DNA of 23,092 bases, from positions 1-23,092 of the IMG/VR virus record IMGVR_UViG_3300021963_000682. One strand, 5' to 3'. The DNA comes from a virus. Every line of letters begins with the position of its first letter. Within the stretch, counting starts at the first letter, position 1. The position numbers and the translations under genes were made by a program. Positions 2,715 through 23,092 of the stretch are shown piece by piece. The notes beneath the pieces were generated by a model. The model was not told the DNA's origin and did not search any database. It saw nothing but the letters and a program-made list of their open reading frames with translations.

Positions 2715-4030
2715 GCATCCTTAACGCAGTACCAGGTGGTTCCATCCTTGAAAATCCGATCATTGGTGGCATCAACCCAGACTGGTCACACGTCAGCAAT
2801 GATCTATTCCTCAGCCTGACAGATCCACAACGTCAAGTTTGGGAATCGCCTGAACGCTTCAAACTCCTGTGTTCTGGACGAAGGTTTGGCAAAACTTACC
2901 TTTGCATCGCACGTTTAATAGCCTGGGCAATCGACAAGCCTGGAAGCCTTAACTGGTACGTGACAGCTAACTACCGCATGGCAAAGCAAATTGCCTGGCG
3001 TCAGTTAAAAACGATGGTACCGTCTGACATCTGCGTCAAACGAAATGAATCTGAACTTTCAGTCGAGTTATATAACGGCAGCATCATCGCGTTGAAAGGT
3101 GCTGAAAATGCAGATAGCCTTCGTGGCGTTAGCCTTTCTACCTTAGTTATTGATGAGGCAGCATACGTCAAACAGACAGCATGGGAGATGGTTTTACGTC
3201 CGGCGCTCTCTGATCAAGGTGGTCCGGCGTGGTTTATCACGACGCCTGCAGGACTTAACTGGTTTCATGACTTATGGGAACAGGTTGATCAGGAAGATGA
3301 CTGGCGCACCTTTTCGTTCACGACAATCGAAGGTGGTAACGTCCCGCCCGAGGAAGTAGAAGCTGCTCGCCGCACACTAGACGAACGTACCTTCCGCCAG
3401 GAATACCTAGCCTCCTTTGAAACCCTATCCGGTCGTGTCTACCCAGACTTCTCTGATGACAACATCACCACAGACGTTGCTGATACGGGCGGTGATATTC
3501 TCTGGGGCACTGACTTTAACGTCAGCGTTATGGCTGGTGTACTTGCTAGCCGTGTTGGCGATACAATCCACATCTGGGATGAACTCGCGGTAAAACAGTC
3601 CAACACTGATGAAGTCTGTACGCTCCTTAAACAGAGATTCCCGAACCGGCGAATTGTTGCTTATCCAGATCCAACAGGGAGCGCCCGCAAGACATCTGCG
3701 GCTGGTGAAACCGACCACGGCATCATCAGACGCTGCGGCTTCCAATGCATCACACCAAAGCACCCGTGGGCAGTAAAAGACAAAATCAACGCTACCAACT
3801 GGATGATTCGTACCGCTGACGGTCATCTCAAACTATTCATCCACCCACGCTGCAAGCACACCATCAAAGCACTGAAAAACGTCACCTACAAACAAGGCGC
3901 AGACGATTACGTTATTGACAAATCAGCAGGCATTGAACACTGGACCGACGGTCTAGGCTACCTAATCCTGGGCGCCTTCAATCCGCTGTACATGCAAGCT
4001 GGCAAAGGCACTGGGATTCGGGTATATTAG
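2711..4030 (+). CDS. terL: Terminase large subunit (packaging ATPase and nuclease)
   Basis: The preferred start is the GTG at 2711 (439 residues), overlapping the small subunit stop; a GTG at 2615 would add 32 residues that fit only as a shadow of the small subunit. The N-terminal ATPase has a Walker A-like SGRRFGKT (55-62), a Walker B LVIDEA with catalytic D148-E149, and a TTP coupling motif (WFITTPAGLNWF). The C-terminal RNase H-like nuclease shows the acidic triad: D268 in GTDFNVSVMAG, D320 in YPDPTGS, D413 in HWTDGLGY. All key residues are intact. It translocates DNA through the portal and cuts it at the end of packaging. The length is usual for the family. Confidence 0.95.
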   Translation: MSILNAVPGGSILENPIIGGINPDWSHVSNDLFLSLTDPQRQVWESPERFKLLCSGRRFGKTYLCIARLIAWAIDKPGSLNWYVTANYRMAKQIAWRQLKTMVPSDICVKRNESELSVELYNGSIIALKGAENADSLRGVSLSTLVIDEAAYVKQTAWEMVLRPALSDQGGPAWFITTPAGLNWFHDLWEQVDQEDDWRTFSFTTIEGGNVPPEEVEAARRTLDERTFRQEYLASFETLSGRVYPDFSDDNITTDVADTGGDILWGTDFNVSVMAGVLASRVGDTIHIWDELAVKQSNTDEVCTLLKQRFPNRRIVAYPDPTGSARKTSAAGETDHGIIRRCGFQCITPKHPWAVKDKINATNWMIRTADGHLKLFIHPRCKHTIKALKNVTYKQGADDYVIDKSAGIEHWTDGLGYLILGAFNPLYMQAGKGTGIRVY

Positions 4031-14338: not shown

Positions 14339-16489
14339 GTGGCAGTCGCCGTCGTTGATGTACAAGTAAACAGCACAGGTGCGGTAAATCAGATCCGCAA
14401 TGTTGCCAATGCTTCTAAAACGGCACAAGCCAGTGTCAATGGTCTTGAAAATGCTGTTAAAGGGCTTGTCGGTGCTTTTAGCGCAGCTCAAGCTGTTCGG
14501 TTTATTTTTGGTAAAACTGCAGAAATTGAGTCGCAGGTAAAAAGTCTGCAGGTTTTAACTGGCAGTGTTCAGCAGGCAAAGCAAATTATTCAAGAACTGC
14601 AGCAGTTGGGTGCTGTTACACCTTTTACAAGCACGGAACTGATTGATGCTGCTAAACGGCTTAATGCTTTTGGTGTTGAAGCAAAAAATGTAGTTGAAAC
14701 CACGCGGCGGTTAGCCGATGTTTCTGGTGCTACTGGCGCCGAACTTCAAGGTCTTGTTACTGCTTACGGTCAAGTTCAAGCCAAAGGCAGGTTGCAGGGT
14801 GAAGAACTACTGCAGTTCCAAGAACGTGGTGTTGCACTGCAAAAAGAATTGCAGCGCATGTATCGCATGTCTGGCGATGAATTTAGAGAAGCACTCTCTA
14901 AAGGCAGAATCAGCGCAGAAGCGGTACAAGTGGCAATACAGAACCTCACAAATGCTGGTGGTAAATACGCAAACGGGGCAATCGCACAATCTGACACCCT
15001 GCAGGGTAAGTTCAGCACCTTGCAAGATGCTGTTGAGGGTTTGGCGAGAACCATTGGGCAAGTGTTTGCACCGTTGTTCAAATACTTGATGGATGAGGCG
15101 ACGAAAGTCATAACGGTTATTACTGATGCAATAAATATGGCGGCAATGGGTCCGCAAAAGGCAAAGGTTTTGTCTGAAGCAAGGGCTGGAAGACTGCCTA
15201 CATCTAGCCTGAATCCGCTTGACTTTTTCACTGGCAATACCAGTCAGCAAAAACTTTTTGAATTACTTGGCAAGGGCAATGCAAAAGCTGGTGAAACAAT
15301 CTTCAAGAGACTGGCAGAACAAAGCCGTGAAGGTCCAGGTTTTTTGCCGAATTTAGAAAAACTTGGCAAATTAGTTTCACAACAGCCTGGAATTAAAGCT
15401 CCGCCTGCACCTGCACAAAAACCTGGTGCCCAACCGCCATCTTTGCTCACCCCAGTAGGCGGGGGCGGTGGAAAAGATAGAACAAAAGCTGCAGAAGCTG
15501 AACGTAAGCGGCAGGCACAACAAATAGCAGACGCGCAAAGTCTGTTAAGTCTTACTCAATCGCAGTTCAACATAGAAGGCCAAATCCTTCTTGCACGTTC
15601 TCAGAACAATGATGCTCTTGTAACTACAAGAACAGCTCAAAAAGAATTGGCTGCTATAACAAATGAAATTGCAGATGTTCGTGCAAATAAAGAAATACCC
15701 GATGCAGCAAAGCTAGCAAAAATCGCTGATCTCGAACTCAAGGCAAAAGGAGTATCAAGGCAACTTGCTTTTGACTTAGCAATAGCAGAAAAAGAAAAAG
15801 CAAAGAACGCTGCAGATGCAATGCAAAAACTCGTGGATGAACAGGCATTGATGCAAGCCCGGCTCAATGGAAATGAAGCAGAAGTTTTATTGAATCAGCA
15901 AATTAGAGATTTGAAAGCTCAGTATCCGGGTCTAAATGAAGCTGATGTAAGGACAACACTAGAAAAAACAAATGCGTTAAAAGAACAGGTATCTGCAGCC
16001 GAACAACTTAAACAGCTTTATGGTGATATAGGCATGACAATTAAAAGTGGTGTTGTTGAGGCGATACAAGGCGCGATTGACGGAACCAAATCATTGCAAG
16101 AAGTAGCCAATAATTTGTTGAGTAGCATTGCTAATAAATTGCTTGACGTTGCTGTCAACCTTGCCCTGTTCGGCACAATGTCGGGCACTGGCACTGGCGG
16201 TGGATTGCTGGGCGGTTTATTTAAGCGTGCCAATGGCGGCTCTGTGATGGCTGGTCAGAGTTATTTGGTTGGTGAGCGTGGTCCCGAGCTGTTTACGCCT
16301 GGTCGCAGTGGTGGCATTGCTCCTGCGGGTTCTTTTGGCGGAGTTGGCAATATTGTGGTGAACGTTGACGCCAGCGGTTCCAGCGTGCAGGGTAATGGAC
16401 CTGACTCCGCTGCTTTAGGTCGTGCCGTTGGTGCTGCTGTGCAGGCAGAATTGATTAAACAGAAGCGACCAGGAGGCTTGCTGGCGTAA
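14339..16489 (+). CDS. Tail tape measure protein (716 aa)
   Basis: The GTG at 14339 is the only start between the T-domain stop (14309) and the conserved region. Residues about 60-185 match the tape-measure N-terminal domain (VQQAKQIIQELQQLGAVTPF, RLNAFGVEAKNVVETTRRLADVSGATGAELQGLVTAYGQVQAKGRLQGEELLQFQERG). A Pro/Gly-rich linker (about 350-380) leads into a long Gln/Glu/Lys-rich coiled coil (about 380-560). A hydrophobic segment (about 590-630) precedes a tail with the RANGGSVMAGQSYLVGERGPELF block typical of tape measures. It sets tail length and is ejected during infection. At 0.15 nm per residue it predicts a tail near 107 nm. No lytic enzyme domain is seen. Confidence 0.95.
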   Translation: MAVAVVDVQVNSTGAVNQIRNVANASKTAQASVNGLENAVKGLVGAFSAAQAVRFIFGKTAEIESQVKSLQVLTGSVQQAKQIIQELQQLGAVTPFTSTELIDAAKRLNAFGVEAKNVVETTRRLADVSGATGAELQGLVTAYGQVQAKGRLQGEELLQFQERGVALQKELQRMYRMSGDEFREALSKGRISAEAVQVAIQNLTNAGGKYANGAIAQSDTLQGKFSTLQDAVEGLARTIGQVFAPLFKYLMDEATKVITVITDAINMAAMGPQKAKVLSEARAGRLPTSSLNPLDFFTGNTSQQKLFELLGKGNAKAGETIFKRLAEQSREGPGFLPNLEKLGKLVSQQPGIKAPPAPAQKPGAQPPSLLTPVGGGGGKDRTKAAEAERKRQAQQIADAQSLLSLTQSQFNIEGQILLARSQNNDALVTTRTAQKELAAITNEIADVRANKEIPDAAKLAKIADLELKAKGVSRQLAFDLAIAEKEKAKNAADAMQKLVDEQALMQARLNGNEAEVLLNQQIRDLKAQYPGLNEADVRTTLEKTNALKEQVSAAEQLKQLYGDIGMTIKSGVVEAIQGAIDGTKSLQEVANNLLSSIANKLLDVAVNLALFGTMSGTGTGGGLLGGLFKRANGGSVMAGQSYLVGERGPELFTPGRSGGIAPAGSFGGVGNIVVNVDASGSSVQGNGPDSAALGRAVGAAVQAELIKQKRPGGLLA

Positions 16490-16830
16490 TGGCTACTTTC
16501 CCCGCAATTACCCCGTCATACGGCGCCCAAAAAACCAGCCAGCCATCAGTCCGTAACGTCAAATTCGGCGACGGCTACAGCCAGCGCTTGCGCTTCGGTC
16601 TCAATCAAGACGCAAAGCAGTGGGACCTAACTTGGCAAAACATCAGCGAGACAAATGCCGACACAATCGAAACCTTCTTAGAAGCCAGAGCTGGCGCAGA
16701 ATCCTTTGACTGGACACCTCCCGACTCCGCAACGTCTTACAAGTGGATCTGTCAGCAGTGGAGCAAGACAATACCTTACGTAAACCGGGCCACAATTACC
16801 GCAACTTTTGTTCAGGTATTTGAACCATGA
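16489..16830 (+). CDS. Minor tail protein (gpM-like, 113 aa)
   Basis: The TAATG overlap couples it to the tape measure. The pattern FPAITPSYGAQKTSQPSVRNVKFGDGYSQRLRFGLN, then WDLTWQNISETNADTIETFLEARAGAESFDWTPP and a final beta section is that of the phage minor tail (lambda gpM) family, with the G-D-G-Y-x-Q-R and W-T-P-P signatures. It forms part of the distal tail adapting the tube to the L/J tip. Its stop overlaps the start of the L-like gene (ATGA). Confidence 0.93.
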   Translation: MATFPAITPSYGAQKTSQPSVRNVKFGDGYSQRLRFGLNQDAKQWDLTWQNISETNADTIETFLEARAGAESFDWTPPDSATSYKWICQQWSKTIPYVNRATITATFVQVFEP

Positions 16831-18401
16831 GCGAAATGTTCAAGGAGCTACTTAGCTCCAACCCTTACGCGATCATTGAACTATTCGAGCTGCATCTTGA
16901 CTTGGATTTGCACGGCAGTGCGGAGATTGTTCGCTTTCATGCTGGCGTCAACCAAAAAACACCAGCGGGCGATATTTACTGGCAGGGCGAACCGTACCAG
17001 CCGCTGCCCATTGAAGCTGAAGGGTTTGAGTACAACGGCAACGGCCAGCTCCCGCGTCCACGCATCCGCATCTCCAACTTGCTTGGCAGTATCTCCGCGC
17101 TACTGCTTGGCGTCAACGAGATCACGCCCGGCAATGACCTGACTGGCGCCAAGCTGATCCGCATCCGCACGCTCAGCCGTTTCCTCGATCCAGTCAACTT
17201 CACTGGCGGCACCAATCCTTACGGCACACCCGCGAACGAGGAAATGCCGCGTGAGGTCTATTACATCGACCGCAAATCAGTCGAAAACCGCGAGATCGTC
17301 GAGTTTGAGCTTGCCGCTGTCTTTGACTTAGCCGGTGTGCGCGCACCAAAGCGTCAAGTCATCGCCAATATCTGCCAATGGAAATACCGCAGCGCAGAGT
17401 GCGGTTACACGGGGACAAATTATTACGACGAATACGACAATCCGCTTGGTGCCACACCTGCCGTCAACTTCGCCGCCAGTGTATTTGGCAATCAGCTAAC
17501 CGCTGGCGAGACACTCAGCAATGGCGATTACATCACATCCGCCAACGGCTGGTACAAAGGCATCATGCAAAACGACGGCAACTTTGTCGTCTACAAAAAG
17601 CCTGGTCCGCAAGGCATCCCTGGCAACAATGCAGTTTGGGCAACCAACACTGTTCGGGGCAGTGGGTCGTACCAGCTCAGGATGCAGACCGACGGCAATG
17701 TGGTTTTATACAAGGATGGCAGCGAAGTGCTGTGGGCAAGTAACACCGCTTCCACAGCCTCTCCCACTACCGTCTCGTTCATTAACTGGTATCCAACCAA
17801 CGTCAATGTTGGACGCAGCGGAGGCTTTGGTTACGAGATGGTGGGATCCTCGCCCAGCGCACTGGGTCAAACGCAATCCGTCACTTACACATTCACAATC
17901 AGCACCGGCAAAACAATCCGGCTAACTATCGGATTCACATCTTTTGAAATACCAGCCGACCCCCCGCACTACTCCGGCCAGTCCTTTGGCTGGGGCGCCA
18001 GTTCTTACACAATCGTCAGCTCGACTGGCATTTGGTATCTAAATGAAGTCTTTAACGCCACGCGCACCCTCAGCGACGGCAACCCGTTTAAGTACAACAA
18101 TCCCGATAGTGGCACATTGTCATCTGCTGGTCCTCAACTTCAAGTCACAGGTGTCACCGGCAACGTAAACAACCGCTTGACCCTCAACGCTGATGGTGGC
18201 TTGACCGTCTACACCAACACAAATACCGTCTTGTACGCCTCGGGCTACAGCAACAGCAACGAACCTTTAGTGACCACTGGCACGGTCGACCCACTGCGGG
18301 ATGTATGCGGCAAGCGCATCAGCTCCTGCAAAAAGCGTTTCGGCGATTATGCCGACCTACCGTTTGGGTCATTCCCCAGCGCTGGCACCTTCTACGGATG
18401 A
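16827..18401 (+). CDS. gpL-like tail tip protein with inserted bulb-type lectin domain (524 aa)
   Basis: Residues 1 to about 195 and about 490-524 form a gpL-like minor tail protein. The iron-sulfur cysteines are all present as C183-x8-C192 and C494-x6-C501, the spacing seen in lambda gpL, where only about 20 residues separate the two pairs; here about 300 do. The insertion starts near 220 with a bulb-type (D-mannose-binding) lectin: QxDxNxVxY motifs QNDGNFVVY (248-256) and QTDGNVVLY (287-295), plus a degenerate third, NADGGLTVY (454-462), separated by about 130 residues of another beta-rich segment. The frame is uninterrupted. A lectin at the tail tip suggests binding of host surface glycans; this is inference. 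Iron-sulfur binding is inferred from lambda gpL. Confidence 0.9.
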   Translation: MSEMFKELLSSNPYAIIELFELHLDLDLHGSAEIVRFHAGVNQKTPAGDIYWQGEPYQPLPIEAEGFEYNGNGQLPRPRIRISNLLGSISALLLGVNEITPGNDLTGAKLIRIRTLSRFLDPVNFTGGTNPYGTPANEEMPREVYYIDRKSVENREIVEFELAAVFDLAGVRAPKRQVIANICQWKYRSAECGYTGTNYYDEYDNPLGATPAVNFAASVFGNQLTAGETLSNGDYITSANGWYKGIMQNDGNFVVYKKPGPQGIPGNNAVWATNTVRGSGSYQLRMQTDGNVVLYKDGSEVLWASNTASTASPTTVSFINWYPTNVNVGRSGGFGYEMVGSSPSALGQTQSVTYTFTISTGKTIRLTIGFTSFEIPADPPHYSGQSFGWGASSYTIVSSTGIWYLNEVFNATRTLSDGNPFKYNNPDSGTLSSAGPQLQVTGVTGNVNNRLTLNADGGLTVYTNTNTVLYASGYSNSNEPLVTTGTVDPLRDVCGKRISSCKKRFGDYADLPFGSFPSAGTFYG

Positions 18402-19108
18402 CCCACTGGAAACACGACGCACAAGAACACGCGCTGCAAGAAGCGCCACGGGAGGCGTGCGGCCTGGTGCTGGTTGTCAAAGGGCGCGAACGCTACTGGC
18501 CGTGCAAAAACCTTGCCGCCGACCATGACTTTTTTGTCATTGACCCAGAGGACTATGCCGCCGCCGAGGATGCTGGCGAAATCACGGCAATTTTCCACAG
18601 CCACCCGCGCAGTCCCGCGCAACCCAGTGAAGCCGACCGCATGTCCTGCGAAAAGTCAGGCTTGCCTTGGTTCATCTGCAATCCCGGCACCCAGATGTGG
18701 TGCGAGATCAAACCATCCGGCTACAAGGCACCACTGATCGGACGGCAGTGGGTGTGGGGCGTCAGCGACTGCTGGACGCTGGTGCGCGACTGGTACAAGG
18801 AAGAGCTGGATCTTGACCTACCGGACTGGGATCGCCCGGCATCCATGATGGACTTCCACCAGGCGCCCATGTTTGAAGAGTGTTTTGCCAAGGCTGGTTT
18901 CGTGGACATGGGACTGGAGCTGCCTCAGTACGGCGATGCAATCCTGATGCGCCTTGATGGATCACCAGGTCTCAACCACGTCGGCGTGTATCTAGGCGAC
19001 CAGCTTTTTCTGCATCACCTGCGGGGTCGACTCAGTAGCCGCGACCTGTGGGGTGGCTACTATCAGAAGAGCACAGGCTTGATTGTTCGGCATACCAGCA
19101 GGTGTTGA
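18398..19108 (+). CDS. gpK-like tail tip peptidase (JAB/MPN plus NlpC/P60, 236 aa)
   Basis: The start ATG at 18398 overlaps the L stop; an upstream ATG at 18305 would extend only into L. The N-terminal JAB domain has an intact JAMM metal site: E19 in PREACG and H67-S-H69-x7-S77-x2-D80. The C-terminal NlpC/P60 domain has a catalytic C125 in GVSDCW, H194 in LNHVGVYLG and H206/H207 in LFLHHL as the third polar residue. Lambda K has the same two-domain layout. The pair is thought to act in tail assembly processing and in local cell wall cleavage during injection. All catalytic residues are present. Confidence 0.93.
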   Translation: MTHWKHDAQEHALQEAPREACGLVLVVKGRERYWPCKNLAADHDFFVIDPEDYAAAEDAGEITAIFHSHPRSPAQPSEADRMSCEKSGLPWFICNPGTQMWCEIKPSGYKAPLIGRQWVWGVSDCWTLVRDWYKEELDLDLPDWDRPASMMDFHQAPMFEECFAKAGFVDMGLELPQYGDAILMRLDGSPGLNHVGVYLGDQLFLHHLRGRLSSRDLWGGYYQKSTGLIVRHTSRC

Positions 19109-19109
19109 A

Positions 19110-19742
19110 ATGTTCCGGGTCATCAAGGTCTACGGTAAGCTGGCAAAGCACCTGGGACAGCGGAGTTTCAAGGCTGCGGTGAAGTCACCGGCTGAGGCAA
19201 TCCGTTTCTTGCTGGCTAATTTTCCCAGCCTTCGTGGCGTGATGAGCGAAGGCGAATACCAAGTAACTGTTGGCCGGCTTGGTTTGCAGCTTGCAGATGA
19301 ACCGATGCAACTGCACTACCCAGCCGCACCACAGGAAGCCATCAGGATCGTGCCCGTCGTTGGTGGTGCTGGCAGCGGCACTGGACAGATCTTGGCTGGC
19401 GTCGGTCTGATTGCAGCCGCGATCCTGCTTGGTCCAGTAGGCGGTGGTTTTCTGGGATTGGGCGCAAACGTGTTGGGCAGTACTTTCACTCTTGGTGCAA
19501 GTGCATCTCTTGCGATTGGCGCGATTGGTTCCGCATTGGTACTGGGTGGCGTCTCTCAATTATTGACCCCAACCTCAACAATCAGCTCTGGAACTGACAG
19601 CGCAACCGACCCGAAACGTTCATATTCATTTAGCGGCATCCAAAACGTCAGTCGCCAAGGCGTGCCAGTTCCTGTTATTTACGGTGAAGTGTTAACCGGC
19701 AGCGTGATTATTTCTGCCGGCATCAACACCGAAGAAGTTTGA
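19110..19742 (+). CDS. gpI-like tail assembly protein (210 aa)
   Basis: The start is the ATG at 19110, with AGGTG 5 bases upstream; a TTG at 19083 is disfavoured. A ubiquitin-like N-terminal part (MFRVIKVYGKLAKHLGQRSFKAAVKSPAEAIRFLLANFP) leads to IRIVPVVGGAGSGTG. A long glycine/alanine-rich hydrophobic region (about 90-155) follows, and then RSYSFSGIQNVSRQGVPVPVIYGEVLTGSVIISAGI. This is the lambda tail component I family, needed to assemble the tip with J and absent from, or scarce in, the finished virion. It lies one base after K and one base before J. Confidence 0.92.
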   Translation: MFRVIKVYGKLAKHLGQRSFKAAVKSPAEAIRFLLANFPSLRGVMSEGEYQVTVGRLGLQLADEPMQLHYPAAPQEAIRIVPVVGGAGSGTGQILAGVGLIAAAILLGPVGGGFLGLGANVLGSTFTLGASASLAIGAIGSALVLGGVSQLLTPTSTISSGTDSATDPKRSYSFSGIQNVSRQGVPVPVIYGEVLTGSVIISAGINTEEV

Positions 19743-19743
19743 T

Positions 19744-22700
19744 ATGGAAAAGCATCTGATTGCTGGTGCTGGCGGCGGCGGTGGCGGTGGCGGCAAGGGC
19801 GGTGGTGGCGGTGGCGGTGGGTCGGCCAATGTCACCCGCGACAACCTTGATTCACGTCAAGTTGCACGAATCATTGACTTAATTGGTGAAGGTGAAATTG
19901 AGGGATTCCCCTCTGCCAAGGATTACACCGTTGGCACGACAAATTACAACGTCGCAATGTTGAAGGATGTTTACCTCAACAACACACCAATTCTCCGTGG
20001 CGATGCCGACCCGACCAACGCCCAAGCATCCGATTACAACTTTGACATCACAAATGCTGCCTTCGAGTTTCGCACTGGCACGCAAAACCAGACCTACACC
20101 CAGAACGTAGGTGACGCCAACCAGAGCACAACGCTGGTTAACACAAAAGTTACGCAGGCATCGGCAGTAACCCGATCTATTACCGACACCGATGTCAACT
20201 CAGTGCGCGTAACGATTGGTACGCCAGCTCTGCAAATTTTTAAGAGCAACGGAGACGTTGAAGGTGCTGTAATCCAGTACCGCATCCAAACCTCGTATAG
20301 CGGCGGTCCTTTTTCAACTGTTGTTGAAAGTGAAATCCGTGGCCGCACCGCTGACCTGTACCAGCGCATCCACCGCATTGATCTAACCGCAGCACCACCT
20401 GTTGATATTCGCGTGGTGCGTGTCACTGCTGATGCTGCACCCTCAGGCAGCACGACTGAAAACAGTGACTTTTATTGGTACGACTACACCGAAAAGATCA
20501 ATGCCAAAACAACTTATCCCAACAGTGCATTATTTGCGGTCAAGCTAAACGCAGAGCAGTTCAGCAGTATCCCGTCGCGTGCTTACAAAATTCGCGGCAT
20601 CAAGGTACGCATCCCCAACAATGCAACCGTCAACCCGCAAAACGGTCGCCTGATTTACGCAGGCACTTGGAATGGCACGTTTGCTGCAGCGCAGTGGACA
20701 ACTGACCCAGCTTGGATCCTCTGGGATTTGCTGGTCAGCAAACGTTACGGCTTTGGTGATCACGTCGACGCAGCACAGCTCGACAAATGGAGCTTTTTGG
20801 CTGCCAGTCAGTATTGCGCGGAGGTTGTTGCGGATGGCAAAGGTGGTCAAGAACCGCGCTTCGCCTGCAACGTTGTCATCCAGACGCAAGAAGAAGCGTT
20901 CAAGCTGATCAACGATCTGTGCTCAGTGTTCCGTGCCATGCCGTTTTGGTCGGCTGGTGCACTGGAAATCTCGCAGGATCGCCCGCAGGATTACTCATAC
21001 ATCTTCAACCAGACCAACGTCACCGAGGAAGGCTTCACCTACAGCGGCAGCAGTCTCAAAACTCGCCACACCGTTGCAGTGGTGCAGTATTTCGACATGG
21101 AACTGCGCGACCTTGCCTACGAGGTCGTTGAAGACAAGGAAGGCATCGACAAGTTCGGCGTCGTCAAGATCGAGGTTTCTGCCTTTGCCTGCACTAGCCA
21201 AGGACAAGCGCGGCGTGTTGGTGAGTGGCTGCTGTACACCGAACAAAACGAGACGGAGATCGTCAGCTTTAGCACTGACATTGCCGCTGGCATCACTGTT
21301 CGTCCTGGCGACCTGATCAAAATCGGCGATCCAGTCCGTGCAGGCGTCATGCGCTCTGGCCGTTGCACCACCGGATCAACCACCACCCGCGTCCGCTTGG
21401 ATCGCACAGACGTTGATCTGTTCCCCAGCGGTCCGCCTGCCAGTTTCACTTTCAACGTGCTGCTGCCCAGCGGTCAACTTGCCATCAACGAAGGCTCCTC
21501 GCTGGTGGGTAACTCTGTCTTTACCGGCAGCACCTTGGCCGAGGCACCTGCTGCTGGTGCGCCGTGGACGATCGGCACAACAGAAGTCCAGATGTCGACT
21601 TGGCGTGTGCTGAACGTCAAGGAAACAGACGGCGCAACCTATGACATTACCGCTGTCGCTTACAACTCCACCAAATACGACTATGTGGAGCGGGATGTTC
21701 CACTCGGCACCCGCGACGTTTCTGACCTAAACGAACCGCCTCTGGCACCAACCAATTTGGTGGTCAATGAGGTGCTCTACGAAAGCAATGGTCAGGTGTT
21801 AGCCAAGCTGATTGTCGGCTGGCGTGCTGCAGAACGTGCCCTTACCTATGAGGTGCGCTACCGCTACAACAACGGCAACTGGGTCACCACCAACGTCCGC
21901 TCTGTCGACTTTGAGATCCAGAACAGTGACGTGGGGCGCTACGAGATTGAAGTGACCGCCGTTGGTGCGATCAACAGCAAGCGATCCCCTGCTGCCACCA
22001 AGACCTATGACGCCATTGGCAAGACGGCGCCACCGGAAACCATCCCAGATCTGTTCATTGCCCCGATTGATGAACACACCGCTGAGCTGTACTGGCCACA
22101 GGCGGTTGACCTTGACGTGAAGATCGGCGGCAAAGTCCGCATCCGCCACACCCCGCTGACCGACGTAACCGCCACATGGGGGCGCTCGAACGACATCGTG
22201 CCTGCAGTTGCCGGCAGCAGCACCCGCAAAATCGTTCCACTGCTGGAGGGCACCTACTTCATCCGTGCCGTTGACTCCCTCGGCAACGAATCTGCTGATA
22301 CAGCCAGCGTGGTGGTTGATTTGCCCGCACCACAGGATCTGTTCTTGGTGCAGGAATACCGCGAGGAGGACAACAGTCCGCCCTTCAACGGCACTGCCAC
22401 TGACATGTACTACAACGAGACTGAGGTCGGTCTGGTGCTGTCAGCGGATGAGTTGATTGATGACATGGCCACCGATAACAACTGGGATGGCTTGGGTCTG
22501 ATTGATTACATCGGTGGTGCGGTGAGCGAGGGCGAGTACCAGTTCGCTGAAACTCTTGACCTAGGCGCTGTCTACGACTTGGGTCTGCAGCAGATTCTTA
22601 AGACACGCTCCTACGAACCCGGCAACACTTGGGATGAGCGCCTGGAGTTGATCGACCTGTGGGACGACATCGACGGCGACGACCTTGGTGCGGCCAACTG

Positions 22701-23092
22701 CCAACTGTTTGTCCGTACAACATCCGACAACCCATCAGGCACCCCGACCTGGCGGGACTGGCAGCCATTCGTCAACAACAACCACCGTGGTCGCGGCTTC
22801 CAGTTCAAGTTGGTGGCCACCAGCAGCAACCCAGCGCAGAACGTGGTGGTGGAGGAGCTGGGCGTCAAGGCTGACTTCGAGCGCCGCACCGAACAGCAGC
22901 GCAACCTCAGCAGTGGTGCTGCAGCCTATAGCGTGACCTTCCCAACCGCCTTCTATGGCACACCAAGCGTTGGCATCACGGCGCAGGATATGGCCACCGG
23001 CGACTACTTCACCCTTTCCAGTATTAGCCGCACAGGATTCACAGTGACCTTCAGAAACAGTGGAGGTAGCATGGTGAGTAAGACCTTTGACT
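19744..23092 (+). CDS. gpJ-like host specificity tail tip protein (partial, at least 1116 aa)
   Basis: The ATG at 19744 opens a frame with no stop to the end of the window. After a Gly8-Lys-Gly8 tract (residues 10-26) the J core begins (DNLDSRQVARIIDLIGEGEIEGF, LKDVYLNNTPIL). Central blocks include NPQNGRLIYAGTWNG, AWILWDLLVSKRYGFGDHV and FRAMPFWSAGALEISQDRP, typical of J. Two fibronectin type III-like domains follow (about 663-755 and 757-863), then a Tyr/Asp-rich region and a C-terminal beta domain (about 1052 on: YSVTFPTAFYGTPSVGITAQ) of the type that forms the receptor-contacting end. J determines host range. The length is already near that of lambda J (about 1130), so the stop is probably close beyond the window. 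Confidence 0.95.
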   Translation, partial: MEKHLIAGAGGGGGGGGKGGGGGGGGSANVTRDNLDSRQVARIIDLIGEGEIEGFPSAKDYTVGTTNYNVAMLKDVYLNNTPILRGDADPTNAQASDYNFDITNAAFEFRTGTQNQTYTQNVGDANQSTTLVNTKVTQASAVTRSITDTDVNSVRVTIGTPALQIFKSNGDVEGAVIQYRIQTSYSGGPFSTVVESEIRGRTADLYQRIHRIDLTAAPPVDIRVVRVTADAAPSGSTTENSDFYWYDYTEKINAKTTYPNSALFAVKLNAEQFSSIPSRAYKIRGIKVRIPNNATVNPQNGRLIYAGTWNGTFAAAQWTTDPAWILWDLLVSKRYGFGDHVDAAQLDKWSFLAASQYCAEVVADGKGGQEPRFACNVVIQTQEEAFKLINDLCSVFRAMPFWSAGALEISQDRPQDYSYIFNQTNVTEEGFTYSGSSLKTRHTVAVVQYFDMELRDLAYEVVEDKEGIDKFGVVKIEVSAFACTSQGQARRVGEWLLYTEQNETEIVSFSTDIAAGITVRPGDLIKIGDPVRAGVMRSGRCTTGSTTTRVRLDRTDVDLFPSGPPASFTFNVLLPSGQLAINEGSSLVGNSVFTGSTLAEAPAAGAPWTIGTTEVQMSTWRVLNVKETDGATYDITAVAYNSTKYDYVERDVPLGTRDVSDLNEPPLAPTNLVVNEVLYESNGQVLAKLIVGWRAAERALTYEVRYRYNNGNWVTTNVRSVDFEIQNSDVGRYEIEVTAVGAINSKRSPAATKTYDAIGKTAPPETIPDLFIAPIDEHTAELYWPQAVDLDVKIGGKVRIRHTPLTDVTATWGRSNDIVPAVAGSSTRKIVPLLEGTYFIRAVDSLGNESADTASVVVDLPAPQDLFLVQEYREEDNSPPFNGTATDMYYNETEVGLVLSADELIDDMATDNNWDGLGLIDYIGGAVSEGEYQFAETLDLGAVYDLGLQQILKTRSYEPGNTWDERLELIDLWDDIDGDDLGAANCQLFVRTTSDNPSGTPTWRDWQPFVNNNHRGRGFQFKLVATSSNPAQNVVVEELGVKADFERRTEQQRNLSSGAAAYSVTFPTAFYGTPSVGITAQDMATGDYFTLSSISRTGFTVTFRNSGGSMVSKTFD

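Follow-up and report, generated by a model that had tools for sequence, protein, structure and literature searches.

In the tail tip (hub) protein gpL of phage lambda, the iron-sulfur cluster is coordinated by Cys173, Cys182, Cys205, and Cys212, and the loop site of the protein lies at the tail tip surface (PMC10721106). The C-terminal region of gpL is near the cell wall, and its hypervariability has been remarked upon (PMC13243795). In the RcGTA hub (gp13, Rcc01696) the ion-binding domain is split in two by a putative oligosaccharide-binding domain (PMC7296036), and a putative oligosaccharide-binding domain likewise splits the ion-binding domain of the roseophage R4C hub, vBDshSR4C_014 (PMC10276861). 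The R4C hub sequence has cysteines at positions 147, 157, 244, and 251, with the insert between C157 and C244. In both hubs the inserted domain comprises approximately 82 residues and is OB-like, akin to the insertion domain of LKA1 gp49. Separately, the three-repeat beta-prism II fold with QxDxNxVxY sites is shared by GNA-type (monocot mannose-binding, B_lectin) proteins, pyocin L1, and putidacin L1; pyocin L1, with the same motif, prefers D-rhamnose in LPS (PMC3916391).

The window analyzed here, a 23,092-nucleotide stretch of viral DNA (IMG/VR record IMGVR_UViG_3300021963_000682), encodes a 524-residue protein that, like the RcGTA and R4C hubs, is of the gpL type and carries additional sequence between its iron-sulfur cysteine pairs. 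In contrast to those hubs, whose inserts are three to four times shorter, contain no QxDxNxVxY motif, and hold no nested second domain, the insert of the 524-residue protein is predicted to be a beta-prism II lectin interrupted by a further small domain. An insert in the gpL iron-sulfur loop therefore has published precedent, and the assertion in a first-pass annotation of this DNA that no described gpL has such a design was too strong, since the RcGTA and R4C hubs carry a domain at the same position; what differs is the class of the insert, a predicted beta-prism lectin of a better characterized kind, and the domain nested in it. A search of literature largely outside the subscription journals found no description of phage tail proteins that carry bulb-type lectins. 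The UniProt entry A0A6J5REC2, from an uncultured Caudovirales, is named 'Bulb-type lectin domain containing protein' and related proteins may thus already be annotated in databases. The features of the locus are as follows:

16827-18401, plus strand: gpL-like tail tip (hub) protein with lectin insert, 524 residues (PF05100, phrog_18, 98% identical full-length homologs)
16827-17441, plus strand: gpL N-terminal half, residues 1-205, with the lambda HDI-type domain and the first iron-sulfur cysteine pair (profile alignment to 8iyk_L and 25vf_7; dN/dS 0.044)
17373-17402, plus strand: first iron-sulfur cysteine pair, C183/C192 (spacing 9, as for lambda C173/C182)
17490-17747, plus strand: predicted bulb-type lectin repeats 1 and 2, residues 222-307 (phmmer, profile, AlphaFold2)
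17568-17594, plus strand: sugar-binding motif I, QNDGNFVVY, residues 248-256 (sequence; Q-D-N-V-Y in 34 of 43 non-redundant homologs)
17685-17711, plus strand: sugar-binding motif II, QTDGNVVLY, residues 287-295 (sequence; Q-D-N-V-Y in 35 of 43 non-redundant homologs)
17757-18164, plus strand: nested domain, residues about 311-446, some 135 residues (AlphaFold2 of the domain alone, pLDDT 95.5, pTM 0.88)
18165-18257, plus strand: predicted lectin repeat 3, residues about 447-477 (Foldseek alignment across the nested domain)
18186-18212, plus strand: degenerate sugar-binding motif III, NADGGLTVY, residues 454-462 (8 of 43 non-redundant homologs have all of QDNVY)
18294-18398, plus strand: gpL C-terminal half, residues 490-524, with C494 and C501 (profile alignment; dN/dS 0.045)
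18305-19108, plus strand: gpK-like peptidase, JAB and NlpC/P60 (PF14464, E 1e-15; PF00877, E 5e-14)
19744-23091, plus strand: gpJ-like central fibre protein, incomplete at the window end (phrog_31, E 2.5e-202; FNIII-A_GpJ, E 3.5e-30)

Several lines of sequence evidence identify the 524-residue protein as a hub of the lambda gpL type, belonging to a lambda-type siphophage tail. The Pfam model Phage_tail_L (PF05100) matched residues 32-208 with an E-value of 4.2e-57 (193 bits; cut-off 25), and phrog_18 (PHROG 18, minor tail protein) matched two stretches with an E-value of 4e-84. Further, lambda gpL (8iyk_L) and the F2-pyocin hub (25vf_7) could both be aligned with a family profile over the two halves of the protein, including its four cysteines; the C-terminal half was aligned to DRCGGRVSDCKLRFG of 25vf_7 and to DKCSKCLSGCKFR of lambda gpL. 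The protein contains four cysteines only, at positions 183, 192, 494, and 501, and the interval 17373-18329 extends exactly from the C183 codon to the C501 codon. Within the first and second pairs the cysteines lie 9 and 7 positions apart, exactly as in lambda gpL, with which the protein also shares the HDI-type N-terminal domain and the K-I-J neighbor order. However, 301 residues separate the pairs, compared to just 22, with no extra domain, in lambda. The observation in the first-pass annotation that the four cysteines keep lambda-like spacing while a loop of about 20 residues is replaced by about 300 was thus confirmed, because intra-pair spacing is identical and both halves align to lambda gpL. 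C183 and C192 are invariant in an alignment of diverse homologs, and the cysteines appear to be conserved as ligands of a putative [4Fe-4S] cluster.

The reading frame is open throughout 16827-18401, as the annotation had also noted in calling the insertion in frame, and the lectin shares this one frame with gpL, ruling out a separate lectin gene. Full-length homologs that are 65-98% identical were recovered from dozens of IMG/VR contigs from different metagenomes, indicating that gpL proteins with this lectin (hereafter lectin-gpLs) are not an assembly artifact; an assembly chimera or a chance open reading frame is ruled out by these independent contigs. In an AlphaFold2 model built from a shallow alignment of 30 sequences, the gpL halves had pLDDT values of 22-43, and the argument that the gpL fold survives the insertion is therefore one of sequence conservation.

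The nature of the insert was suggested first by sequence. In a phmmer search of the PDB, residues 222-307 matched the snowdrop-type lectin gastrodianin (1xd6) with an E-value of 3.7e-14, as well as pyocin L1 and GNA-type agglutinins, while the family profile matched 1xd6 at an E-value of 1.3e-23 and also matched pyocin L1 and GNA. The identification of a bulb-type lectin in the first-pass annotation was upheld by these matches to GNA-type lectins but not by the Pfam B_lectin model, which scored the insert at 23.1 bits, under its curated cut-off of 32.4. For this reason, structural evidence for a lectin matters. The AlphaFold2 model was of high confidence over most of residues 221-470, and its Foldseek comparison with 1xd6 gave a target-normalized TM-score of 0.88 (rmsd 2.7). 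The alignment to the whole 110-residue 1xd6 occupied 255 columns of the model, with the nested domain skipped, because prism repeat 3 comes only after the nested domain; where lectins were aligned over repeats 1 and 2 alone, the TM-score was about 0.65. Repeats 1 and 2 were modeled with pLDDT mostly between 77 and 90, falling to near 58 at residues 260-269. Based on these models, the insert is predicted to be a bulb-type (GNA) lectin with a three-repeat beta-prism II fold, located, as had been claimed, in the loop between the cysteine pairs.

Two perfect QxDxNxVxY motifs and a degenerate third had been noticed previously, and all three were recovered as described. Shuffling of the insert yields 0.0001 such motifs per shuffle, and two perfect ones are observed. 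Motif III is intact in some relatives, reading QSDGNLVYY in L156 and QNDGNLVYY in L138. Since motif III stands on the far side of the nested domain, the lectin is split into residues 222-307 and 447-477. The beta-prism II fold that had been placed at residues 220-309 is therefore present there in its first two repeats, but it is interrupted by residues of about 311-446 and resumes with repeat 3. A self-contained lectin at 220-309 followed by chance residues is ruled out by the position of repeat 3. Pyocin L1 and the plant lectins are free proteins, whereas the prism described here belongs to a virion hub and has a domain of about 135 residues between its repeats 2 and 3.

The nested domain was folded by itself (residues 308-447, with 41 diverse homologs in the alignment), and the resulting model has about seven strands and one helix. 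A Foldseek search of this model against the PDB returned nothing better than an E-value of 0.42, searches of Pfam and PHROGs gave no convincing match, and the lone sequence-profile match in the PDB, 6xi1, was weak and short. The domain was found in 81 of 81 intact, complete lectin-gpLs. The exception is a contig from a MAG (L202, 2335 onwards; RGVP01000028), in which a 98% identical gpL leaves the frame just after repeat 2 and joins unrelated sequence; this contig is probably an assembly chimera.

Taken as a whole, these observations are best accounted for, with a probability that we place at roughly 0.7, by a gpL hub with a split lectin that provides trivalent, weak, and reversible docking on host polysaccharide ahead of the gpJ receptor. 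A bulb-type lectin would have taken the place of the exposed loop of the iron-sulfur domain, and an additional small beta domain in turn interrupts the lectin. By homology to lambda gpL, the insert would be displayed outside the tip, near the membrane and beside gpJ, and three copies of gpL per tip would present three lectins. Each could offer two intact sugar sites in this virus and up to three in its relatives. Low-affinity sites presented as a trivalent array are well suited to reversible docking, and we infer that, before gpJ engages its final receptor, weak, multivalent, and reversible contacts might hold the tip on a mannose- or rhamnose-type polysaccharide in the host envelope. Sugar binding, the ligand (including a mannose specificity), and the role in adsorption are likewise inferred.

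Conservation of the insert bears directly on whether it binds sugar at all. Sugar-site residues have a conservation of 0.88, compared to 0.63 for other lectin positions (permutation p 0.0004), and few residues of the lectin are better conserved than the Q, D, N, and Y of motifs I and II. Pooled dN/dS was lowest in the gpL halves (0.04) and rose through lectin repeats 1 and 2 (0.08) and the nested domain (0.10) to repeat 3 (0.13). Lectin-gpLs are under purifying selection, and the low dN/dS together with the sugar-site conservation indicates that the lectin module is maintained, most strictly at sites I and II. In a few homologs, motifs I and II have been lost along with III, as in L161 and L164, where the motifs of all three repeats are degenerate; some members of the family may therefore not bind sugar, and those with degenerate sites may have changed ligand or lost binding. 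Such homologs are compatible with an unlikely alternative, namely that the insert is a structural spacer or tip stabilizer, for example one that contacts gpJ or gpM, with a lectin fold that has no need of sugar binding and a motif retained for the sake of that fold. Curculin and neoculin, lectin-fold proteins in which sugar binding has been lost, are among the phmmer matches to the insert, and the inserts found in the same loop of sister proteins include coiled-coil-like and beta-repeat kinds, both of which would be in keeping with a spacer. However, motif I and II residues are retained in 34-35 of 43 homologs, and the loop needs no stabilizer, because insert-free gpLs share the same flanks. 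Docking on host polysaccharide by a functional lectin is accordingly the reading retained below.

Lectin-gpLs were sought beyond the close homologs. A lectin-profile scan detected a related lectin in 263 contigs, and the best 80 of these were kept; all newly found divergent lectin contigs that were read had the same gpL architecture, and the more distant lectin-gpL clades are 46-59% identical overall. A tblastn search of 50,697 phage records with the insert gave no match, and a second, full-length lectin-gpL query matched gpL halves only among the records listed. Scanning of bacterial and archaeal genomes yielded 16 loci, one of which is the chimeric contig with a partial lectin. In prophage-like loci (Limnohabitans, Polynucleobacter, and others), the gpL lacked an insert in 12 of 12 that were read.

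Among 210 complete, unique gpL open reading frames, 46 had a loop of ordinary length (at most 45 residues, counted from the first to the third cysteine), 80 carried the lectin, and 14 carried other inserts, frequencies that are not population estimates because sampling was by similarity to a few queries. The other inserts are of four kinds, of about 45, 86, 140, and 160 residues, and occupy the same site. Inserts of one type are homologous (42-91% identical), and different types are essentially unrelated; one type weakly resembles an endosialidase beta-barrel (PF12195, 7e-5, under the cut-off). Insert-free sister gpLs share both flanks with lectin-gpLs, and the loop therefore tolerates insertion, in agreement with the first-pass suggestion that the site is a permissive loop; the survey also showed that insertions at this loop recur among gpL homologs. 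In a maximum-likelihood tree of the gpL core with the insert removed, all 24 lectin representatives fell into one clade (support 100/99), and the lectin insert is inherited vertically within that clade. In contrast, the four other insert types are each spread over two or more branches, and the AU test rejects a single clade for each (p 1e-73 to 0.02). An earlier quick tree in which long branches were kept agrees on the multi-branch insert types, and one small supported group of four sequences holds four different modules. This multi-branch pattern fits repeated loss as well as transfer.

At this site, several gpL branches carry other modules (AU p 0.02 or less), a pattern that would be expected of a host-range determinant, and the site is on the tip surface (PMC10721106). 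From this it could be argued that specificity is determined by the lectin as the main receptor-binding element and that gpJ is the trigger only. This seems quite improbable given that the lectin insert itself is vertically inherited in one clade, that gpJ is large and, in the part covered by the window, intact, and that the monosaccharide affinity of such motifs in pyocin L1 is in the millimolar range (PMC3916391). A lectin that docks reversibly before gpJ engages its receptor remains the preferred reading.

The genes around gpL follow the lambda order M-L-K-I-J, with open reading frames beginning at 16489, 16827, 18305, 19083, and 19744. The M, L, K, and J positions were matched by profiles, including a gpM-like protein at 16489-16830, and the open reading frame in the gpI position (19083-19742) had no Pfam match. 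The gpK-like gene probably starts at 18398, where ATGA overlaps the gpL stop (18398-18401), rather than at the ATG at 18305. Near the window end, residues 1063-1110 of gpJ (22930-23091) have a weak match to H_lectin (PF09458, E 0.003, under the cut-off), and a second lectin-like domain may lie past the window end in gpJ. Upstream of the terminase, at 725-1492, is a ParB-like partition or nuclease protein (phrog_620, E 1.9e-32).

The portal shares 79.7% identity with its counterpart in Synechococcus phage KBS-S-2A, 74% with that of S-H1, and 63% with those of Prochlorococcus phages MED4-184 and MED4-117, and the best matches of gpJ are Prochlorococcus phages (36-37%). The virus therefore appears to be related to cyanosiphophages, and the portal and gpJ relatives make a picocyanobacterial host likely, chiefly on the basis of the head gene. 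The gpLs of KBS-S-2A and S-H1 are related to the 524-residue protein and have four cysteines (172/182/205/212 and 174/183/205/212, respectively), but they are 235 and 233 residues long and lack the insert. Portals of other lectin-gpL viruses were 78% identical, 34% identical, or not detected, several of these being fragments. Because the portals differ, the lectin-gpL tail module appears to be mosaic, associated with different head modules.

As the virus comes from a metagenome and has no isolate, and as bulb-type lectins may be a versatile class, it is conceivable that the insert binds a surface other than that of the host, for example the extracellular polysaccharide found in aggregates or some other part of the virion, and thereby raises residence near hosts. 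We regard this as highly improbable, since a tip position beside gpJ points to a role at the host envelope, as in the docking proposed above.

The iron-sulfur loop of gpL looks like an exchangeable socket for attachment parts. A broader, tentative, and still somewhat doubtful proposal is that it might be a general second adhesin socket of lambda-type tails that is exchanged independently of gpJ, with the lectin clade representing a doll-in-doll adhesin whose innermost domain would be a new fold with a second ligand. The gpL domain would then be a mounting point for adhesins near the membrane, separate from gpJ and side fibers, which is testable. The distance between cysteine pairs could serve as a sequence rule by which adhesins of this kind are located in any gpL-type phage, and lectin-gpLs could provide a route to reading the host glycan specificity of uncultured cyanophage-related viruses.

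Other departures from the ordinary gpL design were observed during the survey. Two proteins (L229, 2986-4455, and L221, 2989-4509) have a 45-residue insert between the pairs and beta repeats of about 150 residues after the fourth cysteine. A third (L276, 2986-4344) has an insert of roughly 220 residues made of repeated TYSMTGTTITVTSASHG-type units, an enlarged form of the 140-residue type. In Marine virus AG-345-A17 (L052, about 3001-3990), an extra domain is present at a different site, before residue 130, and the cysteine domain is lost. Finally, gpLs of the Prochlorococcus-phage type (L284-L363 and L054) are about 192 residues long and are without the iron-sulfur domain altogether.
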